From NCBI GenBank assembly GCA_903813345.2, contig CAIIXF020000006.1, positions 9,226,989 through 9,290,988 of the forward strand: a DNA stretch of 64,000 nt, in the 5' to 3' direction. This stretch comes from Owenia fusiformis. Taxonomy: Eukaryota > Annelida > Polychaeta > Sabellida > Oweniidae. The position numbers and the translations under genes are program-made. The notes under the pieces were generated by a model. The model searched no databases, was not told the origin of the DNA, and saw only the letters and a list, made by a program, of their open reading frames with translations. The number at the start of each line of letters is the position of its first letter. Positions within the stretch are counted from its first letter, which is position 1. Below are positions 32,401-64,000 of this stretch, piece after piece.

Positions 32401-35400
32401 AGGCGTGTAACTAGAAGAGACACTAGTTTCACGACTGTAAGACCTACTACGCCTGCGTGGACTGTGTTCACCATGACGGTCATGATGACCTCTTCTCTCC
32501 GGCGTATAACGTCTGGGTTCTGGTCTCCTAGGGCTCCAAACTCTGTCCCGACTGCTCGAATGTCTCCCACGTCTCCTGGGGCTGCCACGTCTCGAAGGAC
32601 TTGCACGTCTCCTGGGACTTGCGTGGCTTCTGGGGTCCTGAAATCTCCATGGGCTAGGGCTCCTGCGGGGACTCCTGTAACTTTTGCGGGGACTTCTGAC
32701 AAAATCACTCCTTGCCGCTGAGCTTGGTCTGTCCGACCTTGCCTCCTGTTGAAGCCTCCGAGGACTGCTGTGCCTGGTGTTCACACTGTTCCTTGGGCTT
32801 TCTTGTTGCTTGTTTTGAAGCATTTCGTTCATCAGAACAGAAATCTTCTCCTTGAGAAAGTTGTCAGTCAGACTCATGTTGAAGTTCTGGTCTGCACTCT
32901 CTTGAATCCCTGCTTGCTCTGTGTCTCCATCAGTGCATTCTCCTTCTTCTTGCTGGAGAATGATAGCAGGACATTTCTCTGAGGTGTTCATGTAAACGTC
33001 CTCGTTGTTCATCATCTTGACGAATATAGTTGCTCCAAGTTCTGTTGAAGGCTTGTAGCGAGATGGTCGTCGAAAGGTAATATGAAGTAGGTCGTAGCAT
33101 GAAGCATGGATAGGCAGTGTATTGGACGAGTTCATTCACTAATCCGTTCATTCAATAGGGGTGTTAGACCTTTCGACTAGTCAATTTATTAAGGTAATGG
33201 CATATAATTAAGAGGGAAGTAAGTGATATAAACGTTACATTTCATGTATGGATTTAGTAAATGTATCTCTATTTATGCTTTGGTTATTTAAAGAACCTAC
33301 AGAGCCCCCCCCCCCCAGGCAAATTTAGATGACTTATTTCCATCAAATGCATGACCTACATGTACTGTTAAATCTCATCCCGATTCCTGATGTATTTGTG
33401 CTTTGTTCTTTGTAGATATCAATGCAATCGCTGCAGTTTTTGGGATATTTCCCGATGCATTGTCAGGTTCCACAAACTTCGACACGAAAAGCTAGGAATT
33501 AAACAATACTTATGTGAAGTCTGTGGGAAGAAATTTACCAGTTTCTTTCAAAAGGAAATTCATTACAGAACATACCATAAAGGTAATCAGCAGTGCTTAT
33601 TAAACAGTTGAACACAGACATAGCAGAGGGGTTTGTTTGATCTGCCGCCCCTACCTTGGTGGATTTTGACCTACCCATCAACCATACGTACAGGGTGTGA
33701 TTTTAATTTTGGCGAGAATCTATTTCAAGTTTATCATAATCCAATCTTTGATGTATCTCATCATTGAAAAAATGGAATCTTTCTTTGTGTTGCCCGGGTC
33801 TATTTTAAGATGACTTATTGAAATTGGCGCCAAATCATCTCTACAGCTCATTGCCAGGATAATTTACCAAAAGAAAATCGAGCATCCCATTTTACCCTGT
33901 CTCCCCTATTGTTTATATGTTTATATTGGAATACTAAACCGAGTTTATACAAATATTTTTTTGTGTCTTTCAAAGTGAACAGACCACTCGATCGACATAT
34001 ATGGTCAGTTCAAACTAATTGCATGATTCCCCTTACAAAAAATGGCAATACAATCTGGTTTTACGCTGGACTATTAATCCTTGTTCTAAGCTTATCCATT
34101 ACTACTACTGGATAGACCATTGTTAATTCACGGTTAACATGGATATAATTATTGCGAGAAAAATTGAAAAATCAGACCTTAGTGGTGTGGTAGGTAGGTG
34201 GAAATCCACCTACATGTAGGTGGGGGCCGCAGATGAAACAAACCCATGACAGAGTGCTCTCCAAATACTTCTTGGCAATTATTTAACACCATTTCGTTTT
34301 CTGGTATCAATTTATGAAGATACAATGCATGAACATGTTGGAGGACACCAAGTTCTCTGATTAACTCCTTGAGGACTACTTCATTGAAATCGGTAGAATA
34401 CTGCGGATGGACTTTGAAAAGCTTTGAGGGTTACTTGGGGCATATTCACATAGAATGAAAAGCCTAGTAGGCCTAATACTGAACAAAGTAACATAAAGTA
34501 TTTGAAATCTTGTCATCGCCATTTCAGGAAAACTGCTCATCAGATTCGCACACATCATAGAAGATATCAAGTTCTAGAGCTGATTAACTTTTTGGCGGCC
34601 ATTTTGAAGTTTTTTTCGATAAATCTTGTCATCACCATCTTAAGAAAACTGGTCATCATATTTTTTCCAAGTTTGCAAACATGATAGAGGATATCAAGTC
34701 AGAGAGCTGATTAACTTTTGGGGAGCCACCTTGTTTTCTTGTGGCCATTTTGAAGATTTTTCAATAAATCTTGTCATCTCCATTGAAGATAAACCGTTCA
34801 TCGGATTTTCTCCAAATCCTCACACATGATAAAGGATATCAAGTTTTAGAGCTTATTAACTTTTGGGAGGCCATCTTGTTTATCTGGTGGCCATATTGAA
34901 GGTTTGTCGATGGTGTGATCTCGTTCATGTCATGTGCCTTGTTCAACAAATCTTTTCACAATATCTCCAGGAAAACGGCTTGTCTGATATTATCCGTACA
35001 CATTTCACAGGATATAAAGTCCTACTGCTGTTGGTTAACATTATAGAGGTTGTTTGATGAATCTCCCGTTTCAGGAACTTCCATTTCCTTCATATTAGTA
35101 CACATGTAAGAGGGTATCATTACAGTTCTTCAACTTTTGAGCAGATATTGGTGGTGTGATTTTGTTAATGTCCTGTTCATTGTCCGATTTAGTGTTAATA
35201 CTATTATTTTTATTTCCGGCCTAGGGAAGGGGTACAAATGTGAACATTGTGATAAACTGCTACCAAGGAAAGATAGTCTAATTCTACATACTAGAATCAT
35301 GCACACACATAAGGTATGTTAACACATGTCAATTTTAATTGTTTTTTACACATAAAAGCGAGAAAGAGCCACACCATGCTTTTCTAGTTCAAACTTCAGT

Positions 35401-44094: not shown

Positions 44095-44856
44095 CTAGAC
44101 TTGTGTCACAATTTGATCTAGGACTTCTACCCCCTCAGCACCAGAGAAAGACCCCTTAGTATCACCTAAGTCCTGCCGAGACCCTTCAATATCCTTATGA
44201 GCACTAGTTTGTAAAGCATTTGCTTGAGTGTTATTTGAAAGGGTCCCTGTATTAATATCCGAAAATAAATTACTGTCTTCAACTTTGTTACCCAATGAAT
44301 GCTTGGGTATTGAGGGTCCAGACCCTGCATCTGTTACTGGCACATTTTGTTTATAATTATTATTAGCGGTATTGCACTGTGTTAAACTTGATCGCTTTTT
44401 CGAGTCTATGCTGGCTCCCCCTGGTGGTGGTAATTTATGGTCGCTACTGGTGCTCGATGCGTCATCTGACCAGCAGCTCACCAAATCGGGAGTATTTGAT
44501 AACGAGGAAAAGTTTGACATTGAACTTGTGTTAGTGGCTGTAATATCCATATTTGCACTTCCTAAAAATGCTGAGTCAGCAGTCTTGGAACTATCATCGT
44601 CAGTTATTGTGATTAGCTCTCTAGTACTGCAATCGTCCCTTGACACAGCGCTCTGAATACCATTCGTCAATTCATTTTCTCCATCAAGGTTCATATCCAA
44701 TGAGTTCATTTGTTCGGTCATGAATGAACGGAATTTGTCAGATTCTGTTATAGTTGCATCCAGACTCTCCGTGTCACTCTCAGAGTCGCAACCAATATTG
44801 GCAAGCCTCATCATAGATACACTTTGCATCTTGCGACTCATCTTTAGGTCCCACAC
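44095..44856 (-). CDS. EVI5: EVI5-like exon 11: serine-rich tail and stop
   Basis: Acceptor CTCCAG; begins VWDLKMSRKM, equivalent to the region after the last EVI5 coiled coil. An acidic CDSESDTESLD block is followed by a Ser/Thr/Asn-rich, probably disordered, tail ending in QIVTQV, a class I PDZ-ligand form (T-x-V). Confidence 0.85.
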   Translation of the reverse strand: MWDLKMSRKMQSVSMMRLANIGCDSESDTESLDATITESDKFRSFMTEQMNSLDMNLDGENELTNGIQSAVSRDDCSTRELITITDDDSSKTADSAFLGSANMDITATNTSSMSNFSSLSNTPDLVSCWSDDASSTSSDHKLPPPGGASIDSKKRSSLTQCNTANNNYKQNVPVTDAGSGPSIPKHSLGNKVEDSNLFSDINTGTLSNNTQANALQTSAHKDIEGSRQDLGDTKGSFSGAEGVEVLDQIVTQV

Positions 44857-47800
44857 CTGGAGTAAAGTTTATTATCATTCATTATTTTTTGAGTTTGTAA
44901 CATATTGGAATAGATCTACATGTACTTTACATTTCCAAGATTTGGTTAGAGCAAAAAAATAATCTTCAAATAAATTCATAAAATACACAAGATGACAAGG
45001 GATCTAACTTAAAGTAGATAAATACAAGAGGGATTTTTGAATAGATATAACAAGGCATTAACATGCAAAATGTCAACACCTGCCATTTGTTACAGATGCC
45101 AAACACCAACTGCCAAACACCAAACACCATCCACAAAAAAAGTTGGAGACTATAAAAATATGTCATCACTTCTGGTGGTGACATAATAGATGACTGATGT
45201 TGAGTTTTCTTACCTGTTCTTGGAGGTCAGCTATCTTGCCTGCCATATCATCCTCACCGTCATCTGTAGACTTCAACTGGCCAGCAGTTACCAGCTCCTG
45301 GTTCTACAACACATACAGTGTACAGTTACACCTGGTATGTAAAATCTTATCATACAATACACCTTTGACAGTATCTTGTTATTGGTTTTTGCATTTCAAT
45401 TCGAGAATAACAAGCAAAGAAGTTACATTTAGATATTTATTATACAAGATTCACTGGTCCCCACCTGTTTATATAGATGTTACAAGATGTTACATCTTTA
45501 TAACAAAATGGATGAACTTCCGTCGGAGGAAATATCTATTTTCATCATTGGCACCAATAGTCAGGTTTGAATAGGAGATAAGTTCACAGAATATTTCAAA
45601 ATTATATAGAAGCAATCTCTAGGTGGATTTCAAAACTTCATACCATCCTTTTGAGAACCTGAAGTGGCACCAAGCAATCCATTGACTGTTTCACCAAAAA
45701 TCCAAGATGGCCGCCACAATGTATCGGCAAATCACTAAAATTGACTAATATCATCATTTAATTTGTCAAAATAGTTAAATACTGATCAAACATGACTAAT
45801 AATAGTACCTATTAGATAGTCATATGCATTTAAAGTCACTAGATTATTTTTGTGTGAAAACTGGAGTCCCACAAGGCTCAACTATATGTCCCCTACTTTT
45901 TTAGTTCAATGACTTTCATTGACCATGGCATTTGTACATTGCAATGTATAGAAATCCATTTTTGTAACATGTGCACCTAGGACCACATTTCACCTTGCAC
46001 CCACACTTGACCAATGCTTGGCATGCCTTAGCTGCTTGAAGAAGGGCTGTACATAGTGGCATCAGGAGGGACATGTCATACTGCCAGCCACATGTTGTGA
46101 ACTCGATAACCATTTTGGTTATGGCACCAAACTATACCGCCTTGGTTAGCAAGTTAAGATTTTCTGTGCAAGGGCTCCTTTGTTGGTGGTATTTTGTCAA
46201 TGACTGTATGACTGTTACTGAACATTGCTGCATTGATATCTATCTGGTTCCTGGTTCGATCTTATAATAAAACAGTAAAATGTTCCAAGGACTAAATGGC
46301 TTAAACTGACAAAGGCAGGTTTGTTGTAACCATTTGTGCCACTTGTAGAAAAGCTGGAGTAACTTCCTTGAACACATTCCATAGATTGAAGGGCAGATTC
46401 TTTGCTATGGCCAAAGAATGGTGCAGTTATATAATATAATTTAATACCTAATTTTTGAGAGGTCCGAAGGCAATCGAGATTGACACCTATTGCACCCTAA
46501 TGCTGCAGCCATGGCAAGAAAAAGGACATCAGTATCTCCACTTCTGGTTATGAAGTATTTTTTACCCTCTGAGGTCATCTGTTTTATATGAACAAAGAGC
46601 CTAGTGTCAGCTTTTTCATGAGTACAAGGTTCAATCATTGCTGTATCTGGCAATTGAGGAAAGCACTGAAGAGATTCCCAAATAGTAGTTATCATTTGCT
46701 TTTCATTAACATCAACCTCAGACATAAAGTTGGCCAGGAATGCAAACAGCCTTGTCTGGTTCCATTGATTGTTAGAAAGGCTGGCCAATTCTTTGGCATT
46801 CGTGCATCTCTGCATAAATCATCCGTCTAGCACCAGTGCCACAATAAATCCTTGTTAGGGACTTCTCACTGTTTTGTAGGTAAACATTCCAGACAACATC
46901 TAATCTTGGAACACCTTCCATAAGGTGCCTTAATCTGGCTTGGTTTCTAGGCATTTAAGTAGGTCATTTAGTTGTAGGTCTCATGGCTCCATGCTTAGCT
47001 AGGGATGGCGGGAACTCATGGTTTTCATGTTTAAAAAACTAAGACAATTTGTTATGTCTTGATTGTCAAAGGCAAGCAATATAGAGCATAGCTAAAAAGG
47101 TAATTTTCTTCTCTCAGTTCCTTGACCTCAGGAATCATTGCAGATGATTCTTTGTTTTTTCTCCCTAGACCACACCAACTATGCATGCAAGTGAATCCTG
47201 AAGTCAAGGAACTGAGAAATGATTATGACCTTTTTGCTATTACTCTACATTGCATGCCAATCAAGACACAATGACATGTCTTGAGTTTTTCAAATATGAA
47301 AACCATGAGTTCCCGCCATCCCTATATAACCACGGAGCCATGAGACCTACAACAAAAGCAGACTTACTTAAATGTCAAGAAGCTAAGCCAGATGGATCTA
47401 AAGTATTGGAAAAGCCACCTGCAGATGCAATTTTAATATGGCATCCTTCTGGTCCATGTGATGCATCAACCAACTTCCAATAATATGGTACCAATGTCTC
47501 ATTCTTAGTTAAGGCGGCCTATGGAAGGTGTTTCAAGATAAGATGTTATCTGGGATGTCTACCTATAAAACAGTAGGAAGTCCCTGACAAGGATTCATTG
47601 TGGCAATGGATGGTTTATGCAGAGAATGTGATGCCCCAGAATTGGTTAGGCTTTCTAAGAAACAACAACCAGAACAAGACTGAGCTGTTAGCATTCCTGG
47701 CCAACTCTATTTTTGAGGTTGATGTTTATGACTATTGTGGAATCTGTTAAGTGCTTTCCTCAGTTGCCAGTTACAGTTATGATTGAACCTTGTACTCATG

Positions 47801-50800
47801 AAGAAGCTGATACTACACTAGACTCTTAATGTTCAGGTAAAACAGATGACCTCAGAGGGTAAAAAAGACTTCATAATCAGAATCATTGGAGATACATGTA
47901 CTGGTGAAGTTCTTGCCATGGCTGAATCATTAGGGTGCAATAAGTGTCAATCTGGATTGCCTTCTGACCTCTCAAAAATTACAGGTATTAAATTATATTA
48001 TATAATTGCACCATTCTTTGGCCATAGCAAAGAATCTGCCCTTCAAGCTATGGAATGTGTTCAACGAAGTTACTCCAGCTTTTCTACAAGTAGCACAAAT
48101 GGTTACAACAAACCTGACTTTGTCAGTTCATGCCATTCAGTCCCTTAAACGTTTTACTGTTCTAGTATATGATCAAACCAGCAACCAGATAGATATTGAT
48201 GCAGCACGAAGGCAAATGTTCTGTGACGGCCATACAGTCATTGATAGAATGCCACCAACAAAAGGAGCCCTTGCACAGAAAATTTTAAGAACTTGCTAAC
48301 CAATGTGGTATTGTTTGGGGCCAACTGTACAATCTCAATCCAACATGGGTATCGGAGTTCACAACATGGGGCTGGCAGTATGACATGTTCCTCCTGGTGC
48401 CACTATATACAGCCCTTCCTCAAGCAGCATGCGAAGCATTGGTCAAGTGTGGGTGCAAGGTGAAATGTGGTCCTAGGTGCACATGTTACAGAATGGATTT
48501 CTATGCATTGTTATGTGCAAATGCCATGGTCAATGCAAAATATGCAAAAAAAGTAGCGGACATAAAGTTGAGCCTTGTGGGACTCCAGTTTTCACACAAA
48601 AATTGATCCAATGAATTTAAATGGATATTAACTTCTGATAGGTACTATTATTAGCCATGTTTGATCAGTATACAACTATTTTGACTTATTAAATCATAAC
48701 TTTAGTCATTTTTTATGTTTTTTTGACACATCGCGGCGGCCATCTTGGATTTTCGGTGAAAAAGTCAATGGATTGCTTGGTGCCACTTCAGGTTTTCAAA
48801 AGGATGGTATGAAGTTTTGAAATCCACCTTAAAATTGCTTCTATATATTTTTGAAATATTTTCACCTAAATATTCCTGACTACAAGGAGCTGGTCGATTT
48901 GTATCGAAATATTTTTCCCGAATGTTATAGTATTCAGTTACTGAAAAGCTAATCAGTCAGGAGCAAATATATCTAGCAACTCCAGTAATCGAGTGAGGAC
49001 TCCTCACTTCAGCAACCAGGATGTTATCTGGTGAATTTCATAACATCTTCGGTGCATTGTGTAATGTGTGCATATAGTTGATTAACATCCTGGTTGCTAA
49101 AATGACGAGTTTCTTAAACAATTATTGGAGCCGTTGGATGTTTATTGTTTATTGCCTTCATTCTTTGTGAAAATTATGAAAATAAAAATTTCCTCCAATG
49201 GAGGTTCATCCATTTTGTTAGGAAGACAAAATGTCTTTATATCAAGATCCAAGATGCTTCCTGAATTCCGATTTCTATTTAAGAATTACCTCAATTTCTA
49301 GCTCTGCAATTCTCTGTCTCATCTCAGCTATGGCCTGAGAGTGTTCTGCGTCCTTGATGCGTGACATCATATCTTCCTCCTTTTTCTGAAAACAGCACAA
49401 GTGTAGGGTTTAATTTGAATTGATTTCATGAAATAGAAGCACATTATGGAGATGGGTCAAATTAAACAATTATTACCTTATGAATGACATAGGAAACTGA
49501 TTCAACCAAACAAGAAGTGAAGCTATACACCTGTTATTACCAAATGCACTACTACTATTCTTGTTACAATGTTATAATTGATATATGTTGAAAGTTCATA
49601 GAATGTGTGATACATACAACACTATTTTTTATAGTTCAGAGGCCTTTCTCTTTGCTTATTATCTATATGTACACTACTTATCAGGATTGTATGATTTGTT
49701 GAATGACCTTAACTCATTCAATACTGGGGCAAAAAGCACTATAATACTGACGATATTTTGAAAATTGCCATATATGGTACCTCTGAAATAATATATATTG
49801 TATATACATGGGCATACATATATAGTGTTATATATCATTTTAAAGCATATGACATACTCGTTCAGAATGAATAGTTTTTTAAGTCCCATTTTATAAGTTG
49901 TCATGGTTACAAGATTCCCCTAAAAATACATTGGGTTTGTGCTTGGACTTGATATCACGTCCTTAGTAGTCAACGTATGTGCTTTATGACGTCATATCAC
50001 GTCCTTAGTAGCGAATGAGTTAATACTGTTGAAATAGACCATGCAATCTTTTAATACATGTATAAAATGTGATCATTAGACTCCTCAATACTGTACATTA
50101 TTATACTTATACAATAAATATAGAGTATTATTTTCTCTAGCAATTTATGAACAAAAAAGTACCTTTGAAGAGACATTTGTAGATTTTCTCTCCATTTCTT
50201 TAATCATGTGGAGACATTCTTTCTCTCTCTTCTCCGATTCGTCAATAAGAACTTTCAAAGCAGCCTTTTCGTCATCCATACGTCGCATCTGATGCATACA
50301 TATATGGTTCTAAAAAAAAGTGAACATTTAAGGAGGCTTCTTGAATCACATATAAAATAGTGAAGTACAGTAAAACCTGTGTAAGATGAAAATATTTGTA
50401 CCTCTAATAAATGCCTCACTTGGGAGGTTTTCTACTGACAGAAGTTCATATAAAAATAAGTCAAAGCATCATTGAACTCTGAAGTGTTCAATTTAGAGTG
50501 CTGCAGTTTTTACCATATGCCAATTCTTCAGAGATTTTGTCTCGTCTTGGGTAGATATGTACTAGAAAGCTTAAACAAGGTAAATCAATTTGTATACAAT
50601 CTAAGAACATTTAAAAAATCTCTACAAATTAAAGATGAGCTACCTGTGTTTCTAGTTCCATGACTTTCTGTTTCATTTCCTTGTGTTCAGACAAAGCTTG
50701 AGCCTCCCGAAGTTTCACCGACATAAGTTCATCTTGGATGTGTTGCATCTGGCTTTTGGACAACTTTTTACTGTCAGGTGAATTTGTGGCCTCCATGTGT

Positions 50801-53800
50801 TTCTGAAAATCAATTGACAATAGTTAAAATCCAGTAACATTATCTTGCTGTTAGAAGTTTGAGAATTTATAGATATATGCCCTCATATTTCACTAGATTT
50901 ACATATGTACTAATAAAAACATGTATTTTGGGTTGAGTGTACTTGATGTTGGATGGCAAAGAAATGCCAACGTTTTGAGTATTCTCACAAAGAGTTAATT
51001 TACTCATTTATAATGAGTTAAAAATGTGTCATAAATGAAAAGACCTTTTAACCTGCAAAAAATAAGACAAATACCCACTCAACCTAGAACAGTGTATTGA
51101 CAGATTTTTCAGGGAGGATGTGATGCATGCTTTTGAAGTCATATTTAATCAAAAACTCAAATTACAATACCTTCCAGAACTGATCCAGTTCATTGACCCT
51201 TTGTTTAAGTTCTTTCATAGAAAGATTAGCTTCAGCTTCCCTCAGTTTGGAAGCAATCAACTCTTCTTGTAGTGATTGAATCTCACTTGTTGGTTCCTTT
51301 TGCAACCTCCGGTTTAACTACAATAAAATAATGTAATGTAATAGTTTTTAATTCATTTCCTGGCTTTTGTGTGGTATGATGATATGCTCTTATTTGTAAT
51401 TTAGATTTTTTAAATTTGTAGCTTTTTATTGTAGTCCACACTCACAGCAGGCAGTAGTTCAGTTGAATAATGTCATCGGAATTAAATCATGCAAATAAAA
51501 TTGTATAAATGTTTGGAGTTTCTAAAAGATATCACCTCTATCAGTTTCACATATGGATATCCCTGCTTTATAGGGCAATGTGACACTGAGCATTTATACC
51601 ATAAAAACAATTGTAGCATTTATGCACACATTTTGTATTCAAAGATATATGAGACAATGTCATTACTTAAATATCAAAATTCAAAAGGTATAAATATCTG
51701 TAGTAACATCTTCATGAAATATAATATACTGTAGGTATAGGTTGTGTCAATTTGTTAAATTGTATTATACTGTAGAGTATTAAGTACAACTTTCTTTTAT
51801 ATGCTTACCTCTTCCATTTCTCGAATTTTCTCCCTCAGTTCTCTCATGGCACCATTATTATTGTCAATCTGAAGTTTCAATTGTTTGATTTCTTCTTGAA
51901 GTTGTTGTATCATGATTCCTGCTTGCCCCTCTGCCATTGTAAGATTGGTGGTCTGAAAGTAAAATGTTGAGGATATTTGTAATACCTGCGAAGCCTGTGA
52001 AGTGGACATCTCCAGAGTGAAACACTATTTTGAGGGCACCAAAGGTGCTCTGCTCCTATTTCAAATTCCTTGCTATGGAGACAAAATGAATGCTTAGTGC
52101 GTTATTAAGAATGATGAACACAACGATAGACAAAATTTCCCTTTTATTAGGTATCCCCAACAAACAGAGGGATATTAAAGGGATACACTATGGTTTTGAA
52201 AAAAATATCATTTATATCTATGAGTGGATATCGATATCTTCATGAGTGAGCGCAGCAAATGAGTGAAGATATTTATATCAATGAGAAGATATAAAAATTG
52301 AAAAAAGGAAAAAATTTAAAAACATCGAAACCATTGTATATCACATTTGAAACCATTGAATGTCACCTTTAAAAAAGTGATATTCCATGGTTTAAAAGTG
52401 ATATTCGTTGGTTTCAAAAGTGATATTCGATGGTTTGGGGATTTTTGCTGAAATATGATATCTATATATTATATACATATCAAATATATCTTCATGTGAT
52501 ATTTGATCTATATCCTTCTAATCATGGGATGAAATTGAGCACCCAATGTGCCTTAGTTTATGAAATATCACAAATTCAAGTTCAAAAATGATGGTTAATA
52601 TCTGAACCTTGTGCACTGTATAGCATAGTCTGTATATGGCATTGTTTAATACACTTATACAATGGTCTTCAATACAGCATTCTAGCTTGGCCTTTGGCTT
52701 GTGATATCAAGACAGAATTGAGTATATTGTAAAACCTCCCAACTAAATCTGCAAATGAGTTAAAATAATTCTAATTCTTGTTTATCAAGCTTACAAGGTT
52801 GTATATTCATTGTCCTTAGCATCTGATATATTTATACTGTACATACCTTGACTGGTATGAAACAATAACAATATTTTATCATTGCTGTTTATTGTTTGAG
52901 CAAATTAAAAAGAGATCTTGCTCCATCTGTCACCTAATGTAATTGTCACCTCCGTGTATAACAAAAAGCTAGTTGTTGTAACACATGGTCATCTAACAAC
53001 TTTGTTATTGTTATTTTTATGTGAGAGACAATTTTTCAAAATATATCCAATATCTAATTATAATCAGATTCTCTCTGAGATCTTTGGTGGGTAAACAGTA
53101 CATCTATTTGTAAATTTCAACCCTGTAAGTTTGCTGTCTCTTCAGCAAAATGTTTTTCAAAATATCCAGTAACCAAGCTCAAAACAATCATAATTTGTCA
53201 AGTAAAATTTCTTGGCACAGCTAAACAAACAATCTATTTGTAAGGGCCTTCAAAACTAATAAATCAATCGATTAAGATTTGGAAGAATCTATAATAAACA
53301 TGGCAGTCCGGGGGGGGTTGAGGGAGTCCAGGGGGGTTGAGGGAGTTCTCATTGGCCAAAAAGTCTTTCAAAATTATGCAGTTTCTACCATTTTGAGCAC
53401 TTCAAGTGATTTTGGGCCAAAATTAAGGAACATAACCCCCCTAATTTTTTTTATAAAAAAAACTGCCCTCCCCCATTGGCAAAAGCTGACTCAAGCCCTG
53501 CATGGCCTTACTTTTTTATTAAACACAATTATCTCAAGGTATGCTCATTTTTGTCTCAACAAAATTTATCTTACAGCTTATTTCACTTCTTTAAAAAAAT
53601 CAATATGACTATACTTCTAATGTTATCTTGACCTGATTTTGAATATAAAACATATGATTTGTGACATTCTAAGAACTGAAACCATGAGTCAGAAGTTGTA
53701 AGCCATTTTAAACCTGAGAATTAACATACACTATACCGTGGTGTATACTCAAGTTATACCATCATATTAGATCAAGACATAATCAGCTTGGAAGGATGGC

Positions 53801-56800
53801 AGAAAAACCTGAAGGCACAGAGGAATGGGGGGCAATCGTTCACCGCTATAAAGGTCTCTTCAACAGTCAAACCATGAGTGATATTCAGTAAGTTAGCACA
53901 TACCTACTTCCTACAAATGTCCTACATACCTACCTAATACTTGTATAAATATAATGTATAATCAAAATCAATCACTTAATTTATGTGGATTAATGTGAAT
54001 ATATTTTTGCATTCAGCACCAGTTCTTTAAATGGTCCTTTTTCCATATAGCATTGAAATCTTGTTAAAGTCTTATTTTTAATGAGATTTAGGAGATTTGC
54101 ATTTTTTATCATTAAAGACTAACATTTTCTCCTATTTGTTGGCATATTTGAGTTCTGTAGTGTGTGTAATTTTATCAAAACAACTTTGATTTGCACTGTT
54201 ATTTACCTTAATTCAAATTCTAAAGATTTTCTAGTTGTCTAAGAAAGGTCGGGCTAAATCCCCATTGACACAATGCTGAAGAACCTTTAAAAGTCCATTA
54301 ACTCCTACAAGGATCACAATTTTAATATGAAATCACAATCCACATGTCAATAAGATCACAAAGTTACATTCCAATGGGGTTTTAAGTTGATCCAAATTGA
54401 ATTATTTCTTAAATCAAGAAATTAAGTGACTCTGGCAATACATTTACATGTATTCTAGCCCTACCCTATTCCGACCAATACCCATGATGCCATCTATTTT
54501 TCATTTATATGGAAAAAGGTCAATTGCATCAAAGCTCAACCAAATATACATGCCATCTGAATAAACTTTGATACAAACCTTTTTCAGTAAATACTTCAGC
54601 TTGAATAAATACCTGCTCTGCATGACAATCATTATTTGCATTTGATGATTTCTTAAATGTGACCATGCAGGGCAATTTCACTCATGACCATGCAGGGCAA
54701 TTTCACTCATGACCATGCAGGTCAAACTGTGTTCAATTTCCAGAATATATGTATGTAAAATGATGGCTATGGTAAAAATATTTTATTTTTCCTTTAGGTT
54801 CAGTTTTGGTGCCTCTCGAGAGTCTACAGTGTATGCTCATAAGGTGATAATAGGGGCAGCCAGTGATGTGTTCAAGAGTATGTTATATGGGGACCTTAAG
54901 GAGACAAGTGATGTCATTGATATCCCAGACATTTCAATGGAAATTTTTCTTGAAATCATGAGGTAAATGCTTTGAAATGTCATAGTGAATTGTTATGTGC
55001 ATTTGTTATGAAAATCTAATTGATGGAAAATGTATGGTTTTTCAAAAATGAAGAGATTCAATCTCAATTTAGGGAGAACAGATATATATTATGAGGTTAT
55101 ATAATGGTTCATTCTGTATATCGTGTTTATACTCGAGTGAGTATATAATATATTCACAAGTGAGCGTAGCGAACGAGTGAATATATTATATTCTCACGAG
55201 AGTATAAAATGCACGATATACAGAATGAACCATAATATAATCTTATTATGCCACTCTAAGTTCAATTACAGTTGATTCAAACACAATCAACAATTATAAA
55301 ACCATAAAAATATCCCATAGCCAACTCGGTAATGCCGATGTTGATCTCGATCCATTTATGACGTCACTTGATTCTAACAAATCATGTGGGAACCATTTAT
55401 GACGTCACTTGGAAATCATGTGTAACAAAACATACACTTCGTTCTTCGGTCAATATTCATTAGTTCCCAAAATGCACTTCTACAGTGGTATACGCTGGAT
55501 TGTATACGGAGGAGTTGTATACGATGACGATATACCACTCTCCACTGTATATCGTTGTTATAGACCCATGTTATACAACTGTAATCGGACTTAGAGTGGT
55601 ATAAATAGCATATATATGATTTTTGAATTTTTGGGTCATGATATACATGTACATTTTTATACAATACTTTGTATTCTTCATTACAAATTTCTAAGTGATA
55701 ATTTCCTCCATTTTTAGATTCATTTACTATGGGGAAGTTATCCTAACACCAGAAAATGTCCTGGAAATTGTCTATGCTACCAAGAAGTACCTAGTTCCAG
55801 GCTTGGGTGAAAAATGCAGAAAATTCCTTGATGAAAGCATAGACCCAGATAATGTTTGCACTATCTTGGATGCATCCTTGAAGTTTGATGAGGAACCCCT
55901 GAAGAAGAAATGCCATGAAATTATAGCAACCAATACAGCAGATGTTTTCGCATCAGATGCATTTTTGAATTGTTCAAATGAACTGCTTGGACTAATTTTA
56001 GATCAAGATGAGTTAAACATAGAGTCAGAAGTAGAAAAATGGGCAAAGGAAGCATGTAAGAAGCAAGATCTTCCTGTCACTGGTGCCAACATGAGGGAAA
56101 TGATTGGTGATTTTATGTACAAGCTACACCTACTTGAACTTACACCTGATGAGCTTGGGAAGCACATTTCTCCAACAGATATACTTAAACTTCAAGAAAT
56201 CAAAGATATATTGGAATGTATCACGATCGGGAAACCATGTGCAAATCCAAAGTTAAACACAAAACCAAGGGAAAAATTCAATGAAAAAGAATGTAAGCGC
56301 TTCACTTCTCGTCATGCTACTAAATATTGGAATTGCCCTGGAAATTCATGTGATGCACTAAAATTCACAGCAGATAAAACAATTACATTGGCTGGACTGG
56401 GAGTCTTTGTTCCCTATGAAGCCACAACTTATAACTTTACAGCTTCAGTCCAGGTACTTGACAAAACAAACAAAGTCTTATATGATGTCAAGCATGAATT
56501 CACACAAAATGATGTCAAAAAGGGAGATTTAGTAAAGAAGATTGTTTTTGATAAGAAAATTGAAGTAAATTCTAAGGATGAATATTCCATAAAGACATGG
56601 CTAAAGGGGCCAAAAACATACAGAAGTAATGACATGTATACTCCAGTTACAGTTGACAATGTTACATTCACATATTTAAATCACCCAGATTCAGTCAATG
56701 GTACAAAAGCTAAATCTGGGCAACTTCCCTGTCTTTATTTTAAGCGTTTAGGTTAGGTATATAAAAGACACTGATACATATCCATATAATAACTATGTTA

Positions 56801-59800
56801 AAGGAACACTACATTTATATATCACTAATAAACTAGATGCAGCAGGCCCATAGCCAGCCAAAAGGGGGTGCACTTTTAAAAAGAATTTCAAGGGGGTCCA
56901 CTTTGACAAATTTGGCCGAAAATCACATGAAAAATGCATAGAATGGTGAAAACTGCATGATTTCGAAAGCATATTTAGCCAGGGGGGTTTGCCTGATAGA
57001 TTGAAATTGATTGATCCCAATATAGGGCAATATTCCGAAAATTATGTAATATGTTATCATTACTTTAAGTGATTCAAGTGATCGATGTAAAGGACCAGAT
57101 TGAGTATGGCAAGTGATTTTGGACAGTCATATCTTTTACCACGAGTACTTCAATTACCACTAATACGGTAAATGAATCACTCAGTAAAATGCCTGTGTGA
57201 TGCTTTTTGAAGTGACCTTTGGAATGAAAGGACACATCCACATTGAACTTACCCTTTGATTCAATCGTTCCACATCTTTCTCAGCAAGATCAAGTTTCCC
57301 TACGAGATCAACCTCTCGTTGCTTTGAAGTTGAAATATCACGTTTAAGCGCAAACTTTTCCTCTTGCATTGTGGCCTGTGTGACTTGAGCCTGGATAAGA
57401 CGGTCTGCTAGTGTCTGGTTCTCCTGAAAAATATTTATTAGATCAATAACTCATTTCGTTATTTGGTGATGTTATATACAAGCTTTGAAATTAAGTTTTG
57501 ACTTCACCTCAGTTATATAAAGCATAAGTGATTAACGATAATATTTGTAATTTTAGTGAATTACACCATTTTAAGAACCCTTAATGAATTCAAAAAGAAG
57601 TTCAGGTATCCCATCATACAGTATGACTTTTTATACGGATGATGTTTGCTGGAATTTTGATACAGAATAAAGTCCATGTGTGTCAAACCAATGGCTATTT
57701 ACTTTCACTTTTTTAAATATCATATTGGGTCTTAATGCTAAGACAAGGATGTATGTAGCTCTAAACTAACCCTTTCTAGGTTGTCAATCCTCTGTTTGAG
57801 AAGCTTGTTTTCAGTTCTTAGTCTCTAAAATATAAAATTCAAACATTAGTAAAATTAGCTGAGTGATTCTAGGATCAAAATATATAAAATTTTGAATTTT
57901 TAGACTTATTTGGCGCATTCTGGGTGATTCAGGGATAAAAATATTTGATTTATTTCAATTTACGCTTTGGTCTTAAACTTAACCTTAAACAGCCCAATAT
58001 AAAAAGCATGGTGACTTGTAGTTTGCACAATCAATAGACTATTATAATGCCACATGCTTTCTTTTCTTAAATATCAAAGCCTGAAAAACTGCTCACATAG
58101 TTAACAGCATGATACGTTCCAAACTCTATGTGGTTGACATACGCATCATAAAATTTTCAATTTGCAATTAATTCACAAACTTGATGAGCAATTTCTTTCA
58201 AACTGTTATGTTTTCAGAGAATTTTGAGAAAGGTATATCTGTACTCGTATATCAATGTCTAAAGATGTTGCATGTGTATTATTGTATTAACTATAAACAT
58301 AGATGCCAAAAGTTTTTTCTAATATGTCCTATAGCAAAGCTTTTTTAACATCTAATAAGCCCTTTAATATAAAGCCCTTTTTATTATATTCAGCTGCATT
58401 ATACAAGAATTCAAGCAAATAAAGTCAAGTGCTCCTACTTTTCTCGTGAAATATTTCTTTATTAGTTTATTTTACTCACGAGCCCCCTTACCCCCTTTCG
58501 AACCCAAAAGTGCATTAAGTAATTTTCTTGCTCGCATGCTAATCCTACTTTCCTCCATCTTAAAGATTACACATTTCTTCATTTTTTCTCACTCTTCATT
58601 TTCCCATTTTCTGCAACTTACCCGTAGTTCAACCTGTTCTTCTTGCTCTTTGCTCTTGACACTGCTGTATTCTTTCTCAAGCCTGGAATACAAAAACAGA
58701 AGAATATCTGAGTCAAAGTTTTCCAACCTGTCATGAGCTCAAACTTATGAGATCTTGTTTGGATAGAGGTCTCCCATATTTTACACTAATATTCAATGGA
58801 ATGGAAGAGCTAGAGGTGTGAATGGAAGAAGCACTCAGTATTCAATGGGGGTGGGATAGCTACATCACTGGAAAGGGAGGTACTCGTGTGAAGGGAAGAA
58901 GTACTCAGTACTCAATGGGGGTGGGATAGCTACATCACTGGAAAGGGAGGTGCTCGTGTGAAGGGAAGAAGTACTCAGTACTCTATGGGGGTGGGATAGC
59001 TACATCACTGGAAAGGGAGGTGCTCGTGTGAAGGGAAGAAGTACTCAGTACTCAATGGGGGTGGGATAGCTACATCACTGGAAAGGGAGGTGCTCGTGTG
59101 AAGGGAAGAAGTACTCAGTACTCAATGGGGGTGGGATAGCTACATCACTGGAAAGGGAGGTGCTCGTGTGAAGGGAAGAAGTACTCAGTACTCTATGGGG
59201 GTGGGATAGCTACATCACTGGAAAGGGAGGTGCTCGTGTGAAGGGAAGAAGTACTCAGTACTCAATGGGGGTGGGATAGCTACATCACTGGAAAGGGAGG
59301 TGCTCGTGTGAAGGGAAGAAGTACTCAGTACTCAATGGGGGTGGGATAGCTACATCACTGGAAAGGGAGGTGCTCGTGTGAAGGGAAGAAGTACTCAGTA
59401 CTCAATGGGGGTGGGATAGCTACATCACTGGAAAGGGAGGTGCTCGTGTGAAGGGAAGAAGTACTCAGTACTCTATGGGGGTGGGATAGCTACATCACTG
59501 GAAAGGGAGGTGCTCGTGTGAAGGGAAGAAGTACTCAGTACTCAATGGGGGTGGGATAGCTACATCACTGGAAAGGGAGGTGCTCGTGTGAAGGGAAGAA
59601 GTACTCAGTACTCTATGGGGGTGGGATAGCTACATCACTGGAAAGGGAAGTATTGGAGTTGTTCTATGGAGACAATATAGATACATGAACTTAATAATGG
59701 GTATGGGAGGAAAGCTACTCAATGGGATAAATAGACACTTAATATGTTGGGGAAAGATACTCAATGAGATAGAATGCTCAAATTGAAGGGTACATCAGTA

Positions 59801-62453
59801 ATGAGGCAAGTAAGAAATCTAGAACATAATCTAATCTTCAAATGTGAAAATAAAAATTAGCGAGTAATGATGATTTATATATAGTATTTGTAAATGACAG
59901 TTCATATAACATTTTGTAATAATTAATTAATATAAATAGGTGTTAGTTATGTCACTGTACATATGGGATCAATTTGAGATGTGAAAATGCCCAAAGGCAA
60001 TAAATTTGTATATATACATGTAGTTTATATATAGCAAACTTGACAACTTGTTTTACAAGTGCCTTTCCCATATCCATGCTGTGTGCATTCAACTCTGATA
60101 TATAACATATAAAAGTTTACATCAATCATTTAATTATCAAATAATATATGGTAATTGTTGTTTTTGGCAAATGTTAACTATTAACATAGATGCCAAAAGT
60201 TTTTTCTAATATGTCCTATAGCAAAGCTTTTTAACATCTAATAAGCCCTTTAAAGTAACACGTTAAAATGTGAGGGTTGCTTTTTATATGAATAAAATTA
60301 AGAAGAAATGCGAGAGAAGGTTAACTGCGATGAATGAATATGAATAAGTTTATATTGAAATATAGTAAACCTTTTTCTATATACAGGGTGTCCCGAAAGT
60401 ATGGGGGCCCCCCTAGGCAGACATATACCAATATCTCCATAGTATGTGTCATATATCATTTTAAAGCTCATCCAAAGTTACATTGATTTGCCAAGTATCA
60501 TGGTTCAATTCATAAACCGAAAAAAGTTACAGGCATTTCAAAATTTAGTGTTTGGCCAAAATTAAAGTCAGTTTTACACCAGAGTAATAGTTGGTGTGTC
60601 TCCCTAGGCCATGTTAAACAGCAGCAATGCTTTCCATATATAACCTTAAACATGCTTCAAATAGGGATGTGGCATTTTGTAATCCTCATAAAACCTTTTT
60701 AAGGCATTTTAGAAGAATTTCCTTGGAGTATCTACCCTCAATGTCCTCTTTTTAGAACTCAATATCCATCCTATCTTCGTTAATAGCACCCATATTTTCG
60801 GTCACATTCAGGTCAAGGCTGTTGCCAATATACTGAAATGAACTATATTTTTGACCAAACACTAAGTTTTGAAATGCCTGTAACTTTTTACCAGTTGTGA
60901 GTTGAACCATGATACTTGGCAAATCAATGTAACTTTGGATAAGCTTTAAAATGATATATGACACATACTATGGAGACATTGGTATATGTCTGCCTAGGGG
61001 GGGGCCCATACTTTCGGGACACCCTGTATGTACAGAATGTTGAGTAAAATATACAGGTGAATTGGGTTGTTATACAGCTGCTTTACATCAGCTAATCTAT
61101 ATGAATAACAAAATTAGAAGAATATTTAAAATACATGTAACATCACAAGAAAGAATCTCAAACAAAAATGTTGAAGATTGTCTATTAAATAGTACAGGTA
61201 TAATTGAATTTACCTGGTCGAAATATTAACTACCTCTCTAGACTATACTTGGGAAAATTAAGGCAACTAATAAGAGTCATGTGTGATAAGTCACATAACT
61301 CAAGAACATAAGCATATGTAATAATAATAGATTAGAAAATGAATAAACATATGAACACTTAATCAAGTTCTATAATAAGCTAAATAAACCATTTTGACTT
61401 GTGTGTGTTCAACATTTCTTAGTCTTGCATCTCAAGGCACTTTGCTACCCCCTTTACCCCCATTGAGGCACTGTATAATCCCCCTTCATCTCCTTCAATG
61501 CACTGTACTACACATCCCCCTCCCTCTCACCCTCCCTCACCCCCATCAAACCACTATTCAACCCCCTCAACCCCATCGAGGCACTGACTGTATTATCCCA
61601 CTCACTCCCAAAATAAAGTGAGAATAAGAGGACCCTGGGAATTGACGCATGACTAAACATTAATCATAGTATTAATTTTGATTTATAGATTTTTACTTCT
61701 TTTATAGTTTATAGATGATCGAAGCCAGACATTTCCCACAGGCTCTTCCCATACTGTAGTATACAGTATACAGTATATACTGTATTTATAAGAGAGGGTA
61801 TGCAGTGTTTGCCAGAGCTAGGCCTGTTTTTTAGAAAGCTGTCGGTTTTCAAGATGTTGATAAAGTAAACTTGTAAACAATTCATAGATGTCAATGAATC
61901 CCAATTTAGATGTTTTGAGAATTGACCTTAAGTTGGAGATAAACAACTAAATAAAATTGTTATGAACAGGGAGATGTGAGGGTTTATTCCAAGGAAGATA
62001 CATATATTTCCCAAGGGATAAACCTTGTATCTAAAACCAAGTCTATGATATTATAAGGTTCTCTTTCTGTTATACATTCATTGCCTGACATTTTAAAATG
62101 TGTTAGAAATACTAATGTAATTTCAGCTCAATAAAATAGAGCAGTGGGACTACGATGGAAATTTCTGAACCCCAGAAATAGCAGTAGATATGGGATATCT
62201 TAATAACTTACCCTTCAGGTGTTATCCTATAGAAATTCTTGGCTTTATTATCGACCATTTTATGGTTTACTGCCTTAGATGCTGGGGACCATTGGACCCA
62301 ATCAAGGTACTCGTTATATGACTTTGAGCGTACTTTCACTTTAACTCTACGAGGTTTATACACATTTGTACTCCCAGGGGATGTGCTCTTTTCCTCCATA
62401 ATTTTGTAAGTGTCTCCTGTTCGACGGAATGTCAATGGATCGTGATCCTCCAT
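44095..62453 (-). CDS. EVI5: EVI5-family protein, coiled-coil half; TBC-less reading from this start exon
   Basis: Coding exons in transcript order: 62453-62212, 58682-58622, 57824-57771, 57423-57253, 51952-51809, 51317-51171, 50802-50644, 50309-50163, 49385-49290, 45303-45214, 44856-44095 (2073 nt, 690 residues, every junction in phase). Residues 82-437 follow the EVI5 coiled coil in order: LEKEYSSVKSKEQEEQVEL, RLRTENKLLKQRI, ADRLIQAQVT, LQEELIASKLREAEA, IQDELMSVKLREAQAL and AEMRQRIAELEIE. EVI5 is a Rab11-linked regulator of traffic and cytokinesis with a TBC domain before this coiled coil. Here no TBC exon is visible; a full-length form would need exons beyond 64000. Tail 438-690 is Ser/Asn-rich and ends VTQV. 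Another gene lies inside the intron between 57253 and 51952. Confidence 0.85.
45045..45190. mobile_element. Short internally deleted copy of the 35540-38465 element
   Basis: In inverted orientation it keeps both tips ('aacaaggcattaacatgcaa' and 'cttctggtggtgacataat') and a 'gagactataa' segment but has lost the satellite. Confidence 0.7.
45214..45303 (-). CDS. EVI5: EVI5-like exon 10
   Basis: Acceptor TTGTAG, donor CAG|GTAAGA; 30 codons, phase 0: starts NQELVTAGQLKS and ends AGKIADLQEQ, the last coiled-coil heptads. Confidence 0.85.
45916..46954 (-). pseudogene. Mobile-element protein remnant, left palindrome copy
   Basis: Fragments in transcript order: 46954-46772 (RLDVVWNVYLQNSEKSL, TGARRMI), 46815-46441 (TRLFAFLANF, CTHEKADTRLFVHI, SGDTDVLFLAMA), 46113-45916 (GWQYDMSLL, KCGCKVKCGPRCTC). 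These motifs belong to a dispersed, unclassified protein family common in invertebrate genomes, with an ADTR/DTDV core and a C-terminal Cys-rich tail. Frameshifts separate the pieces, so it is not functional. Confidence 0.7.
47240..48600 (+). pseudogene. Mobile-element protein remnant, right palindrome copy
   Basis: The same protein on the + strand: 47250-47483 (FFKYENHEFPPSLYNHGAMR, KADLLKCQE), 47846-48000 (SEGKKDFIIR, GDTCTGEVLAMAESLGCN), 48006-48299 (FNEVTPAFLQVAQM, AARRQMFCDG) and 48385-48606 (KCGCKVKCGPRCTC). It has stops and shifts, including loss of the conserved DTDV. It covers the N-terminal part better than the left copy. Confidence 0.7.
49290..49385 (-). CDS. EVI5: EVI5-like exon 9
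   Basis: Acceptor TTTTCAG, donor GAG|GTAATT; 32 codons, phase 0. KKEEDMMSRIKDAEHS and AEMRQRIAELEIE follow the EVI5 pattern closely. Confidence 0.88.
50163..50309 (-). CDS. EVI5: EVI5-like exon 8
   Basis: Acceptor CTTTTTTTTAG, donor AAG|GTACTT; 49 codons, phase 0. Starts NHICMHQMRRMDDEK. A second in-frame AG 21 nt further in would drop seven residues (NHICMHQ). Confidence 0.82.
50644..50802 (-). CDS. EVI5: EVI5-like exon 7
   Basis: Acceptor ATTTTCAG, donor CAG|GTAGCT; 53 codons, phase 0. Contains IQDELMSVKLREAQAL and KQKVMELETQ, one of the repeated 'LREA' coiled-coil modules of EVI5. Confidence 0.88.
51171..51317 (-). CDS. EVI5: EVI5-like exon 6
   Basis: Acceptor TATTGTAG, donor AAG|GTATTG; 49 codons, phase 0. 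LQEELIASKLREAEA and KELKQRVNELDQFW match the EVI5 module with its aromatic end. Confidence 0.9.
51809..51952 (-). CDS. EVI5: EVI5-like exon 5
   Basis: Acceptor CTTTCAG, donor GAG|GTAAGC; 48 codons, phase 0. QQLQEEIKQLKLQIDNN and MRELREKIREMEE form coiled coil. Confidence 0.85.
52190..52520. mobile_element. Palindromic repeat, second copy of the 690-1040 family
   Basis: Carries 'gtgatattccatggttt', 'gtgatattcgttggtttc' and inverted forms, plus a hairpin 'gatatcttcatgagtgagcg' pairing with 'aatgagtgaagatat'. The loop motif gagcgcagcaaatgag resembles that of the hairpin at 55160. Confidence 0.65.
52521..53795. other. Intron/upstream region, no supported feature
   Basis: Includes a small 'gggggggttgagggagt' direct repeat at about 53310-53345. 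The 109-codon frame at 53279-53608 crosses it and has no recognisable domain. Any promoter of the BTB-PHR gene would lie toward 53795, but no element could be identified. Confidence 0.45.
53796..53887 (+). CDS. BTB-PHR exon 1 (start)
   Basis: ATG in 'gaaggATGgc'; encodes MAEKPEGTEEW through SQTMSDI, donor CA|GTAAGT with a codon split 2+1. Confidence 0.85.
53796..56756 (+). CDS. BTB-BACK-PHR domain protein (BTBD1/2/3/6-like), 3 exons
   Basis: Exons 53796-53887, 54798-54962 and 55718-56756 join in frame (1296 nt, 431 residues). The BTB domain (about 28-105) has MSDIQFSFG, VYAHKVIIGAASDVFKSMLY and MRFIYYGEV. BACK follows (about 115-225; PDNVCTILDASLKFDEEPL, EVEKWAKEAC). A PHR domain (about 277-431) begins CKRFTSRHATKYWNC and ends GQLPCLYFKRL. 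By family it is a Cullin-3 E3 ubiquitin-ligase substrate adaptor acting in the cytoplasm. The short N-terminus before BTB and the divergence fit a lineage-expanded paralog more than a strict BTBD1/2/3/6 ortholog. It lies antisense inside an EVI5 intron. An AATAAA is at 56827-56832. Confidence 0.9.
53888..54797. other. Intron 1 of the BTB-PHR gene
   Basis: AT-rich. It includes a direct repeat of about 25 bp ('gaccatgcagggcaatttc' plus 'actcat') copied two and a half times at 54661-54720, just upstream of exon 2. Nothing else supported. Confidence 0.6.
54798..54962 (+). CDS. BTB-PHR exon 2 (BTB core)
   Basis: Acceptor cctttag, donor ATGAG|GTAAAT; 165 nt, carries FSFGASREST through IFLEIM, the dimerising BTB core. 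Confidence 0.9.
55090..55245. mobile_element. Near-perfect palindromic element (~70-bp arms)
   Basis: 'ttatataatggttcattctg' then 'tatatcgtg' on the left pair with the inverted form ending at about 55240. The centre reads acaagtgagcgtagcgaacgagtg. Direct neighbour of the next inverted-repeat element. Confidence 0.8.
55247..55605. mobile_element. MITE with 29-bp terminal inverted repeats
   Basis: Ends TTATGCCACTCTAAGTTC then AATTACAGTTG, and inverted TTATACCACTCTAAGTCC then GATTACAGTTG (26 of 29 alike). The interior has 'atttatgacgtcactt' twice. It lies in intron 2 of the BTB-PHR gene; a TA or TTA duplication is likely. Confidence 0.75.
55718..56756 (+). CDS. BTB-PHR exon 3 (end of BTB, BACK, PHR, stop)
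   Basis: Acceptor tttttag; completes an Arg codon and reads 346 further codons (including stop) without interruption. Contains AGLGVFVPY, VNSKDEYSIKTWLKG and VDNVTFTYLN, typical PHR beta-sandwich segments. Confidence 0.92.
56827..56832 (+). promoter_or_regulatory. AATAAA polyadenylation signal of the BTB-PHR gene
   Basis: First AATAAA downstream of the stop, about 70 nt after it. Confidence 0.6.
57253..57423 (-). CDS. EVI5: EVI5-like exon 4
   Basis: Acceptor TTTTTCAG, donor AGG|GTAAGT; 57 codons, phase 0. ENQTLADRLIQAQVTQA through DVERLNQR matches the EVI5 ADRLIQ..VT segment. Confidence 0.9.
57771..57824 (-). CDS. EVI5: EVI5-like exon 3
   Basis: Acceptor TTTTAG, donor AGG|GTTAGT; 18 codons, phase 0: RLRTENKLLKQRIDNLER. 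Confidence 0.9.
57825..58621. other. EVI5 intron between exons 2 and 3
   Basis: No gene. Holds one copy (about 58294-58372) of a direct repeat found again at about 60179-60257. The + strand frame at 58446-58736 overlaps exon 2 in antisense and has no support. Confidence 0.6.
58294..58372. repeat. ~75-bp direct repeat, copy 1
   Basis: 'aacatagatgccaaaagttt' followed by 'tttctaatatgtcctatagc' and 'aacatctaataagcccttta' recurs almost unchanged at about 60183-60253. Confidence 0.85.
58622..58682 (-). CDS. EVI5: EVI5-like exon 2
   Basis: Acceptor TATTCCAG, donor CGG|GTAAGT; 61 nt. One base completes a split codon, then LEKEYSSVKSKEQEEQVELR. In EVI5 this segment directly follows the TBC domain; a standard upstream exon ending in AA would give Lys here, while the exon at 62212 gives Gly. 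Confidence 0.9.
58790..59650. repeat. Minisatellite, 70-bp unit, about 12 copies
   Basis: Units such as 'tactcaatgggggtgggatag' pieces, 'ctacatcactggaaaggga' and 'ggtgctcgtgtgaagggaag' repeat every 70 bp from about 58860 with almost no change; the first unit (58790-58850) is diverged. Two variants alternate, with 'ctcaatgggg' or 'ctctatgggg'. Confidence 0.95.
59660..60383. other. EVI5 intron, AT-rich
   Basis: Contains the second copy of the 75-bp direct repeat (60179-60257). Nothing else supported. Confidence 0.55.
60179..60257. repeat. ~75-bp direct repeat, copy 2
   Basis: See 58294-58372; differs by a T-run length change and a few end bases. Confidence 0.85.
60384..61026. mobile_element. 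Mariner-like MITE with ~190-bp TIRs
   Basis: Ends CAGGGTGTCCCGAAAGTATG inverted, with TA at 60382-60383 and 61027-61028. The arms pair through 'gtcatatatcattttaaagc' and 'aaccatgatacttggcaaat'. The 643-bp element has no transposase. Confidence 0.85.
61027..62211. other. EVI5 intron 1 (remainder), low-complexity C-rich patch
   Basis: Holds a CCCC(T/A)-rich stretch (about 61440-61620) with a repeated 'gaggcactg' and a 'atactgtagtatacagtat' small palindrome near 61750. No TBC-coding exon was found in this intron. Confidence 0.5.
62212..62453 (-). CDS. Start exon spliced to the EVI5 coiled coil
   Basis: ATG at 62453; encodes MEDHDPLTFRRTGDTYKIME and then a Lys/Arg-rich segment (KPRRVKVKVRSK) to YRITPEG, donor AAGG|GTAAGT. 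Its two overhanging bases fit the single base of exon 2 at 58682. The peptide has no family I recognise and no TBC motif. An upstream acceptor-like TTCTCTGTAG near 62491 leaves room for a 5' non-coding exon; an in-frame TGA lies just before it. Confidence 0.65.
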
Positions 62454-62491
62454 TTTATAATATATTTGGCACTGTGTATTTGCTTCTACAG

Positions 62492-63840
62492 AGAATCAGC
62501 AGATATTACTAAATGCATCAATGTATCCTATTTAATGTCTTTGAATGAATATATTAAAATGGATCCTTTTTGTTTTATCCATCAGTTAGCATTAGTTAGT
62601 AAGGTATTAACAGGAACAGATACGCTTCTCACACTGCGTGTATCGCGACAGTTATTCAATCCGATTCATTAAATCAAAAGAATTCACAAATGACTCCCGC
62701 TGCAGTCTTCATAAATCCCCATAGTACGATCACTGTAACCTTTCCACACAGAACAAAAAGAGCAATATTTCCATATACCTATTCACTCGTTATGTCACAT
62801 GCATCTAAGCTTGTAATGATATTTCCTCCAAGATTGAGGTTTTCCAATAGTGTATTCCACAACATTGTCTGCTACAGTCTATGAGTCATACATCTGAAGT
62901 GCTTTGCCTCTTAATTGTGCAGACCAGACTAATACATTGAAAATGACAGCTGTTAATCCATAATCGCAATATATTTGTAATAATTCGGGAAATGTACATG
63001 TGTAGCAATTAGAGGGGGTTTCCCCTGTCTTCTCTTTAGCCGCATGCAGTTTTAATGAACACGTGTACAAGCATTCTGATATCTTGACAAAATATTTTTG
63101 CAATAATCTTTATCCCTGGGATATATACAACGCAGATGTACTGTATTTAAAGGTGTCTTTGCTAATCCTGTATATCCCTTTTCAAATGTGATATATCTCA
63201 ATATAATCCCATTTCCACGCTTCTGTTTTGTCCAAATCTTTGATTCAATCTAGATTTGAACACTGGACATTGAATTACTTGAACAGAATAATCCTCGATC
63301 AAACACTATTTCAATTCCAGACTTGAAAATCTATCACTGCTTAGATTGGATCCTTTAATCTAACACATCTCACTGGAAAATGTAAACAGATATTCAATTT
63401 CCTAGAATGCGCATCAGATATCATCTAGTTATCATTTCTATTCAATCTTCCAACACATTCAATCAGATTCTTCCAGATCCTGAATGATATGTAGAGATCC
63501 TTCGGATATTGTCTAGGACATTGTTCTATTTGACTTTTATAGCTGTATTAAACCATTAAACGCATCATTCTCTAAATAATCCAATCATAGCATCACTGAA
63601 AATTAATCTCCTATAGCATATTGAACAGTCTAGCACACAACACTAGGAAAACATTCCATTTCAAGAGTATTATTTTGTGTCTTCAAGTAAGTGCTTCATC
63701 AGTACTCTTTGAATAAAATTGAATAAAATCAATCCTTTGAACTCACCTTACCAAATCAGATCAGATCTTTCAATTGGAAATAATCCTTTGATCTAGCCTC
63801 AATCAACGGATTATCTCTTTTTCAAAGAGTATAGATGAGA
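62492..63840. other. Region upstream of the EVI5 start exon
   Basis: AT-rich, no recognised exon. The 74-codon - strand frame at 62879-63103 and the 64-76-codon + frames lack support. A promoter for the start exon may lie here but no clear element was found. Confidence 0.4.
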
Positions 63841-63844
63841 ACTT

Positions 63845-63968
63845 GAAAAGGGTACCCAACCTGAGCCATTTTTGGGGCTGTGTGTTAGACTGTCACAGAG
63901 CATTGAAAAATGGTACCAAAATTGAACCATTTTACAGGGCTGTGTGTTAGACTATCACATTGCATTGC
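63845..63968. repeat. Imperfect ~60-bp tandem duplication
   Basis: 'gggctgtgtgttagact.tcaca' plus 'gcattg' occurs twice (about 63874 and 63938), each preceded by a 'gagccattttt' or 'gaaccatttta' block. Confidence 0.7.
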
Positions 63969-64000
63969 AGGAAGAGAAGCAGTCTAAGGTACTGGTTAAT

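Follow-up and report, generated by a model that had tools for sequence, protein, structure and literature searches.

A candidate alternative first coding exon for a possible GAP-less EVI5 isoform in Owenia fusiformis

Introduction

EVI5 and EVI5L are animal TBC Rab-GAPs with a long coiled coil (CG11727 in the fly). In the 64,000-nt stretch of Owenia fusiformis DNA analysed here (hereafter the window), the coiled-coil part of such a gene can be reached from an upstream ATG exon, E1, and the resulting protein would have no TBC domain. Is E1 an alternative start of EVI5, or does it lie, by chance or as part of another gene, in front of the coiled-coil half of an ordinary EVI5? A short EVI5, if made, would be a natural test of which share of EVI5 function depends on the Rab-binding coiled coil and which on GAP catalysis.

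Results

The coiled-coil half of EVI5

The chain comprises 11 minus-strand exons with AG/GT borders. It begins at 62453 and encodes 690 residues, the last letter of its stop codon being 44095. Junction E1-E2 is in phase 2 and every junction downstream of E2 is in phase 0. From E1 to E11 the introns measure 3529, 797, 347, 5300, 491, 368, 334, 777, 3986 and 357 nt. The exons are listed below; identities refer to human EVI5, the residue numbers of which are approximate.

E1, 62212..62453, minus strand: candidate alternative first coding exon, 242 nt, 80 codons plus a GG overhang
E2 (the LEKEY exon), 58622..58682, minus strand: matches human EVI5 410-430 (21 aa, 62% identical, 34.3 bits); the exon directly following the TBC domain in EVI5
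E3, 57771..57824, minus strand: RLRTENKLLKQRIDNLER, matches human EVI5 431-448 (18 aa, 78% identical)
E4, 57253..57423, minus strand: coiled coil, open, AG/GT borders, phase 0
E5, 51809..51952, minus strand: coiled coil, open, AG/GT borders, phase 0
E6, 51171..51317, minus strand: LQEELIASKLREAEA repeat, matches human EVI5 502-540 (39 aa, 56% identical, 47.8 bits)
E7, 50644..50802, minus strand: IQDELMSVKLREAQA repeat, matches human EVI5 539-593 (55 aa, 42% identical, 51.6 bits)
E8, 50163..50309, minus strand: coiled coil, open, AG/GT borders, phase 0
E9, 49290..49385, minus strand: KEEDMMSRIKDAEHSQAIAEMRQRIAELEIE, matches human EVI5 642-674 (33 aa, 52% identical)
E10, 45214..45303, minus strand: end of the coiled coil, longest of five nested phase-0 candidates between E9 and E11
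E11, 44095..44856, minus strand: last exon, acidic Ser/Thr-rich tail, AG acceptor, open to the stop at 44097-44095

Five of the exons (E2, E3, E6, E7 and E9) align in order to human EVI5 410-674, at 42-78% identity per piece, and E4, E5, E8, E10 and E11 were assigned by their order in the chain, their phase and borders, and their open frame. Of all acceptors, that of E10 is the most doubtful, the five nested candidates having one donor in common. The post-TBC LEKEY segment is followed by the RLRTEN..LLKQRI start of the coiled coil (62% and 78% identity, respectively, to the human protein), and the repeated LQEELIA.KLREAEA units come in order, E6, E7 and E9 matching human 502-540, 539-593 and 642-674. 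As in EVI5 and EVI5L, the LEKEY junction, RLRTEN(K/R)LLKQRI and the LQ(E/D)ELI..KLREAEA units stand on one strand and in this order; unlike in those genes, the window shows no TBC exons, and a new 80-residue N-terminus is in reach instead. A first-pass annotation of this DNA had proposed both the EVI5 identity and a phase-perfect chain from the ATG exon at 62453 into the LEKEY exon; the ordered coiled-coil matches bear out the former, and the chain translates as claimed. Judged by its sequence, the stretch E2-E11 belongs to an animal EVI5 orthologue, of which it makes up the coiled-coil half.

Two readings of E1

The reading that we pursue is that the window holds the 3' half of the EVI5 orthologue, that its ordinary TBC exons would lie beyond 64000, and that E1 may be an alternative first coding exon. 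Spliced to the LEKEY exon, it would yield an EVI5 of 690 residues that lacks the TBC/GAP domain, as its open reading frame, phase, donor and codon use suggest. We put this GAP-less isoform forward tentatively, at somewhat under an even chance. Its main rival accepts a full-length, ordinary EVI5 with TBC exons beyond 64000 and takes E1 for a chance ORF, or for the start of some other gene located within a long EVI5 intron, with no splicing between E1 and the LEKEY exon; we give it close to an even chance, so that the two are about equally likely.

The ATG of E1 stands in a good context (A at -3, G at +4), and its donor, AGG|gtaagt, is the strongest in the chain with a score of 12.6 (1.5-11.8 for the nine other donors, leave-one-out). 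At 58682, E2 opens with a G followed by LEKEY, and the junction reads ITPE-G-LEKEY. Agreement of phase alone, on the side of an unrelated or chance exon, is a 1-in-3 event. The 80-residue N-terminus is basic, as had been claimed for it, with 16 K+R against 10 D+E and a pI of 9.7.

How often such an exon arises by chance was estimated from qualifying starts, defined as open stretches of at least 240 nt from an ATG to a GTRAG; these limits were fixed after E1 had been seen, so the resulting figures are approximate. Among 1000 dinucleotide shuffles of 58683-64000, a qualifying start occurred in any phase in just 22, which argues against a chance origin, and in phase 2 in 8. The real window, read on both strands, has eight qualifying starts including E1. 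Four lie inside long sense ORFs (17788 on the plus strand; 44841, 33135 and 31107 on the minus strand), two are antisense to long ORFs (31601 plus, 18352 minus) and one falls within tandem-repeat DNA (8972 minus). The antisense and tandem-repeat starts make three chance-like cases outside E1, one of them in phase 2, and these similar starts elsewhere in the window speak for the rival reading. Spread over 128 kb of strand sequence they amount to ~0.12 per 5.3 kb, with one third of that in the right phase. An E1-type start is uncommon by chance, though real DNA gives more of them than the shuffles suggest.

Codon use was scored as log-odds, with E2-E11 and the BTB ORF as the training set. In its own frame E1 scored 0.141 per codon, the two alternative frames giving -0.172 and -0.076, and its ORF came 9th among the 116 stretches that run for 70 codons or more without a stop. 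The eight ORFs above it belong to EVI5 (three), to the BTB ORFs (two) and to the 28-33 kb region (three), and half of these eight come from the training set. Within the chain, E1 scored under nine of the ten other exons (0.225-0.602, leave-one-out), only E11 being lower at 0.033. A G-rich intron stretch at 61603-61514 reached 0.358 over 30 codons versus 0.281 for the best 30-codon part of E1. Overall, we lean towards E1 being a genuine coding exon.

The rival reading gains from the homology searches, as none of the libraries covered yielded a significant relative of the E1 peptide. Pfam to E 1 returned only FctA (E 0.083), with nothing above the curated cut-off, and the 95-aa E1 ORF searched against Pfam to E 10 gave two families that fell short of their cut-offs (E 0.022 and 0.05). 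NCBIfam yielded no match to the peptide and the Rfam search likewise none. Among 13 PDB matches to E 10 none was significant; the best three were to Pierce2 (E 0.19, 0.22 and 0.72) and would suit a small ciliary gene. We considered E1 as a Piercer of microtubule wall protein (Pierce1/2) and rejected this assignment, the best PDB E-value being 0.19 and no Pierce profile being found among the two Pfam families to E 10. In viral contigs one stretch fitted a pattern and none was confirmed, and within the window there was no second copy, the next tblastn match having E 0.39. The single-sequence fold of E1 was not confident (pLDDT 43.7).

The layout of the locus also favours the rival reading. EVI5 has other long introns, of 5300 and 3986 nt, and with a BTB-BACK-PHR gene in intron 4 it already hosts an intronic gene. 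E1 was also tried as the opening exon of a gene with its end inside the 3.5-kb E1-E2 intron. The two top-scoring continuations clear of E2, at 61604 and 60818, had poor donors, which tells against such a gene, and this candidate was rejected. The continuation at 61604 had a summed score of 10.7 and lies in the G-rich stretch; that at 60818 scored 8.2 and lies inside an inverted-repeat element. This search carries little weight, the sum at 61604 being close to that of E2 itself (20 codons at 0.60).

E1 as a first exon or a cassette

If E1 is joined to the LEKEY exon, it could be either the first coding exon or a cassette following the TBC exons. With the gene's own acceptor matrix, no acceptor scoring above 2 was found in 62620-62216. 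Because the accepted acceptors of E9 (0.2) and E10 (1.8) are likewise below 2, the want of a strong acceptor is just mild evidence for a first exon. An AG stands before 62485, 32 nt before the E1 ATG, and scored -0.42. The cassette was rejected on account of this weak acceptor and of the 12 stops that an AA overhang from a TBC exon would produce in the form starting at 62485. E1 fits the role of first coding exon better than that of a cassette.

A single promoter could also produce the short form if a shared upstream 5' UTR exon skipped all TBC exons and joined at about 62485. The AG lies in a suitable place just before the ATG, and an exon starting at 62485 is open in the E1 frame, but of the 3483 AGs on this strand 14.6% equal or surpass it as acceptors, and we rate this route as very unlikely. 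An alternative promoter, as the first-pass annotation proposed, and splicing of E1 to a 5' exon shared with the long form would look alike in sequence.

Position of the TBC domain

No TBC exon was detected in 58683-64000 with human and fly EVI5 TBC regions as queries, the best minus-strand match above 58000 reaching 19.2 bits. The best match overall had 23.9 bits (E 0.32) and lies on the plus strand, at 62508-62654. As a control, mock fly TBC exons were placed in shuffled DNA and searched for at a threshold of 24 bits; 10 of 13 were recovered at 20 aa, 8 of 9 at 30 aa, 6 of 6 at 40 aa and 4 of 4 at 60 aa. The interval 58683-64000 is thus probably free of TBC exons, except perhaps for a very short one. 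The absence of TBC exons from the 3.5-kb intron and up to 64000, which the first-pass annotation had reported, holds as far as such exons can be detected, with full recovery in the control at 40 aa.

Upstream of the LEKEY exon the window offers just 5318 nt of sequence, hardly more than the 5300-nt intron found elsewhere in the gene. The usual TBC exons are accordingly expected to lie a short way beyond 64000, and the catalytic arginine and glutamine of the RabGAP would be encoded in them. The first base of the LEKEY exon, a G, suits a canonical lysine codon AA|G, a lysine occupying this position in the human and fly proteins.

Loss of the TBC domain from the EVI5 family in this lineage, offered earlier as an alternative and leaving the 690-residue protein as sole product, would agree with the search of 58683-64000 but found no support and is hardly credible, given that the view upstream ends 5318 nt above the LEKEY exon in a gene with introns of 5300 and 3986 nt, and that this exon retains the base fitting the AA|G codon.

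What a GAP-less EVI5 might do

Returning to the GAP-less isoform, an EVI5 that starts at E1 would retain the coiled coil and may serve as a Rab effector without GAP activity or compete with the full-length protein. The 690-residue form would be predicted to bind Rabs and the partners of EVI5 without switching Rab11 off. A comparable arrangement is that of the short TBC-less isoforms of RABGAP1L, in which an alternative start leads to the coiled-coil end of a related RabGAP; this is a different gene.

Work on fly Evi5 bears on both halves of the protein. According to PMC4232348, the C-terminal coiled coil binds Rab6-GTP, the C-terminal region is sufficient for Golgi localisation, the N-terminal fragment 1-315 does not bind Rab6-GTP, and a fragment 315-621 was tested in S2 cells with Rab6 and Rab14. 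This fragment resembles the predicted short form in comprising the EVI5 coiled-coil region without the N-terminal part, and differs from it in being a laboratory construct rather than a natural isoform. The catalytically inactive R160A mutant did not rescue the ring-gland autofluorescence that results from Evi5 loss (PMC11094094). Since R160A fails in rescue while the C-terminal coiled coil binds Rab6-GTP, a GAP-less EVI5, if real, could act as an antagonist.

Natural EVI5 isoforms from one locus are exemplified by the microexon isoforms of zebrafish evi5b; unlike the form considered here, these differ at the C-terminus, keep the TBC domain and show equal RAB11 binding in NanoBRET (PMC12626424). 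No natural TBC-less EVI5 isoform was found among the matches listed in the literature searches made, and none is described in the available portions of PMC7900515, PMC5383037, PMC4232348, PMC11094094, PMC12626424 and PMC9312936.

A more specific version of the isoform reading would make E1 a dedicated second first exon, in which the basic 80-residue N-terminus replaces the TBC domain and retargets the Rab-binding coiled coil, so that the locus would yield both a Rab GAP and an opposing GAP-less effector. We consider this fuller scheme rather unlikely.

Other features of the window

Two repeats occupy the E1-E2 intron. One is a 70-bp tandem repeat at 58816-59648 (11.9 copies, 98% match), just upstream of the LEKEY exon. 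The other is the inverted-repeat element at 60373-61037, with 196-nt arms that are 91% complementary and GGGTGTCCCGAAAGT near its ends; it resembles a MITE.

The BTB-BACK-PHR gene lies at 54688-56756 on the plus strand, opposite to EVI5 and inside its intron 4 (57252-51953). Its Pfam matches are to BTB (two pieces, E 7e-8 and 4e-7), BACK (E 3e-7) and PHR (E 3e-25), and its first exon was not located.

Within the E9-E10 intron, at 45916-48606, there are two opposite-strand pieces with a common KCGCKVKCGPRCTC cysteine pattern, one of which has an EKADTRLF motif. The two minus-strand pieces of this region had no Pfam match at E 0.01; the pieces have the look of a broken, repeated mobile element.

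Farther along the window, a 961-codon ORF at 17701-20583 on the plus strand carries an N-terminal BTB domain (E 4e-10), with no other Pfam match at E 0.01. The region 28210-33135 on the minus strand has higher GC and long ORFs with a reverse transcriptase match (E 8e-21), a weak RNase H match and a weak integrase N-terminal match, and is probably a retroelement.
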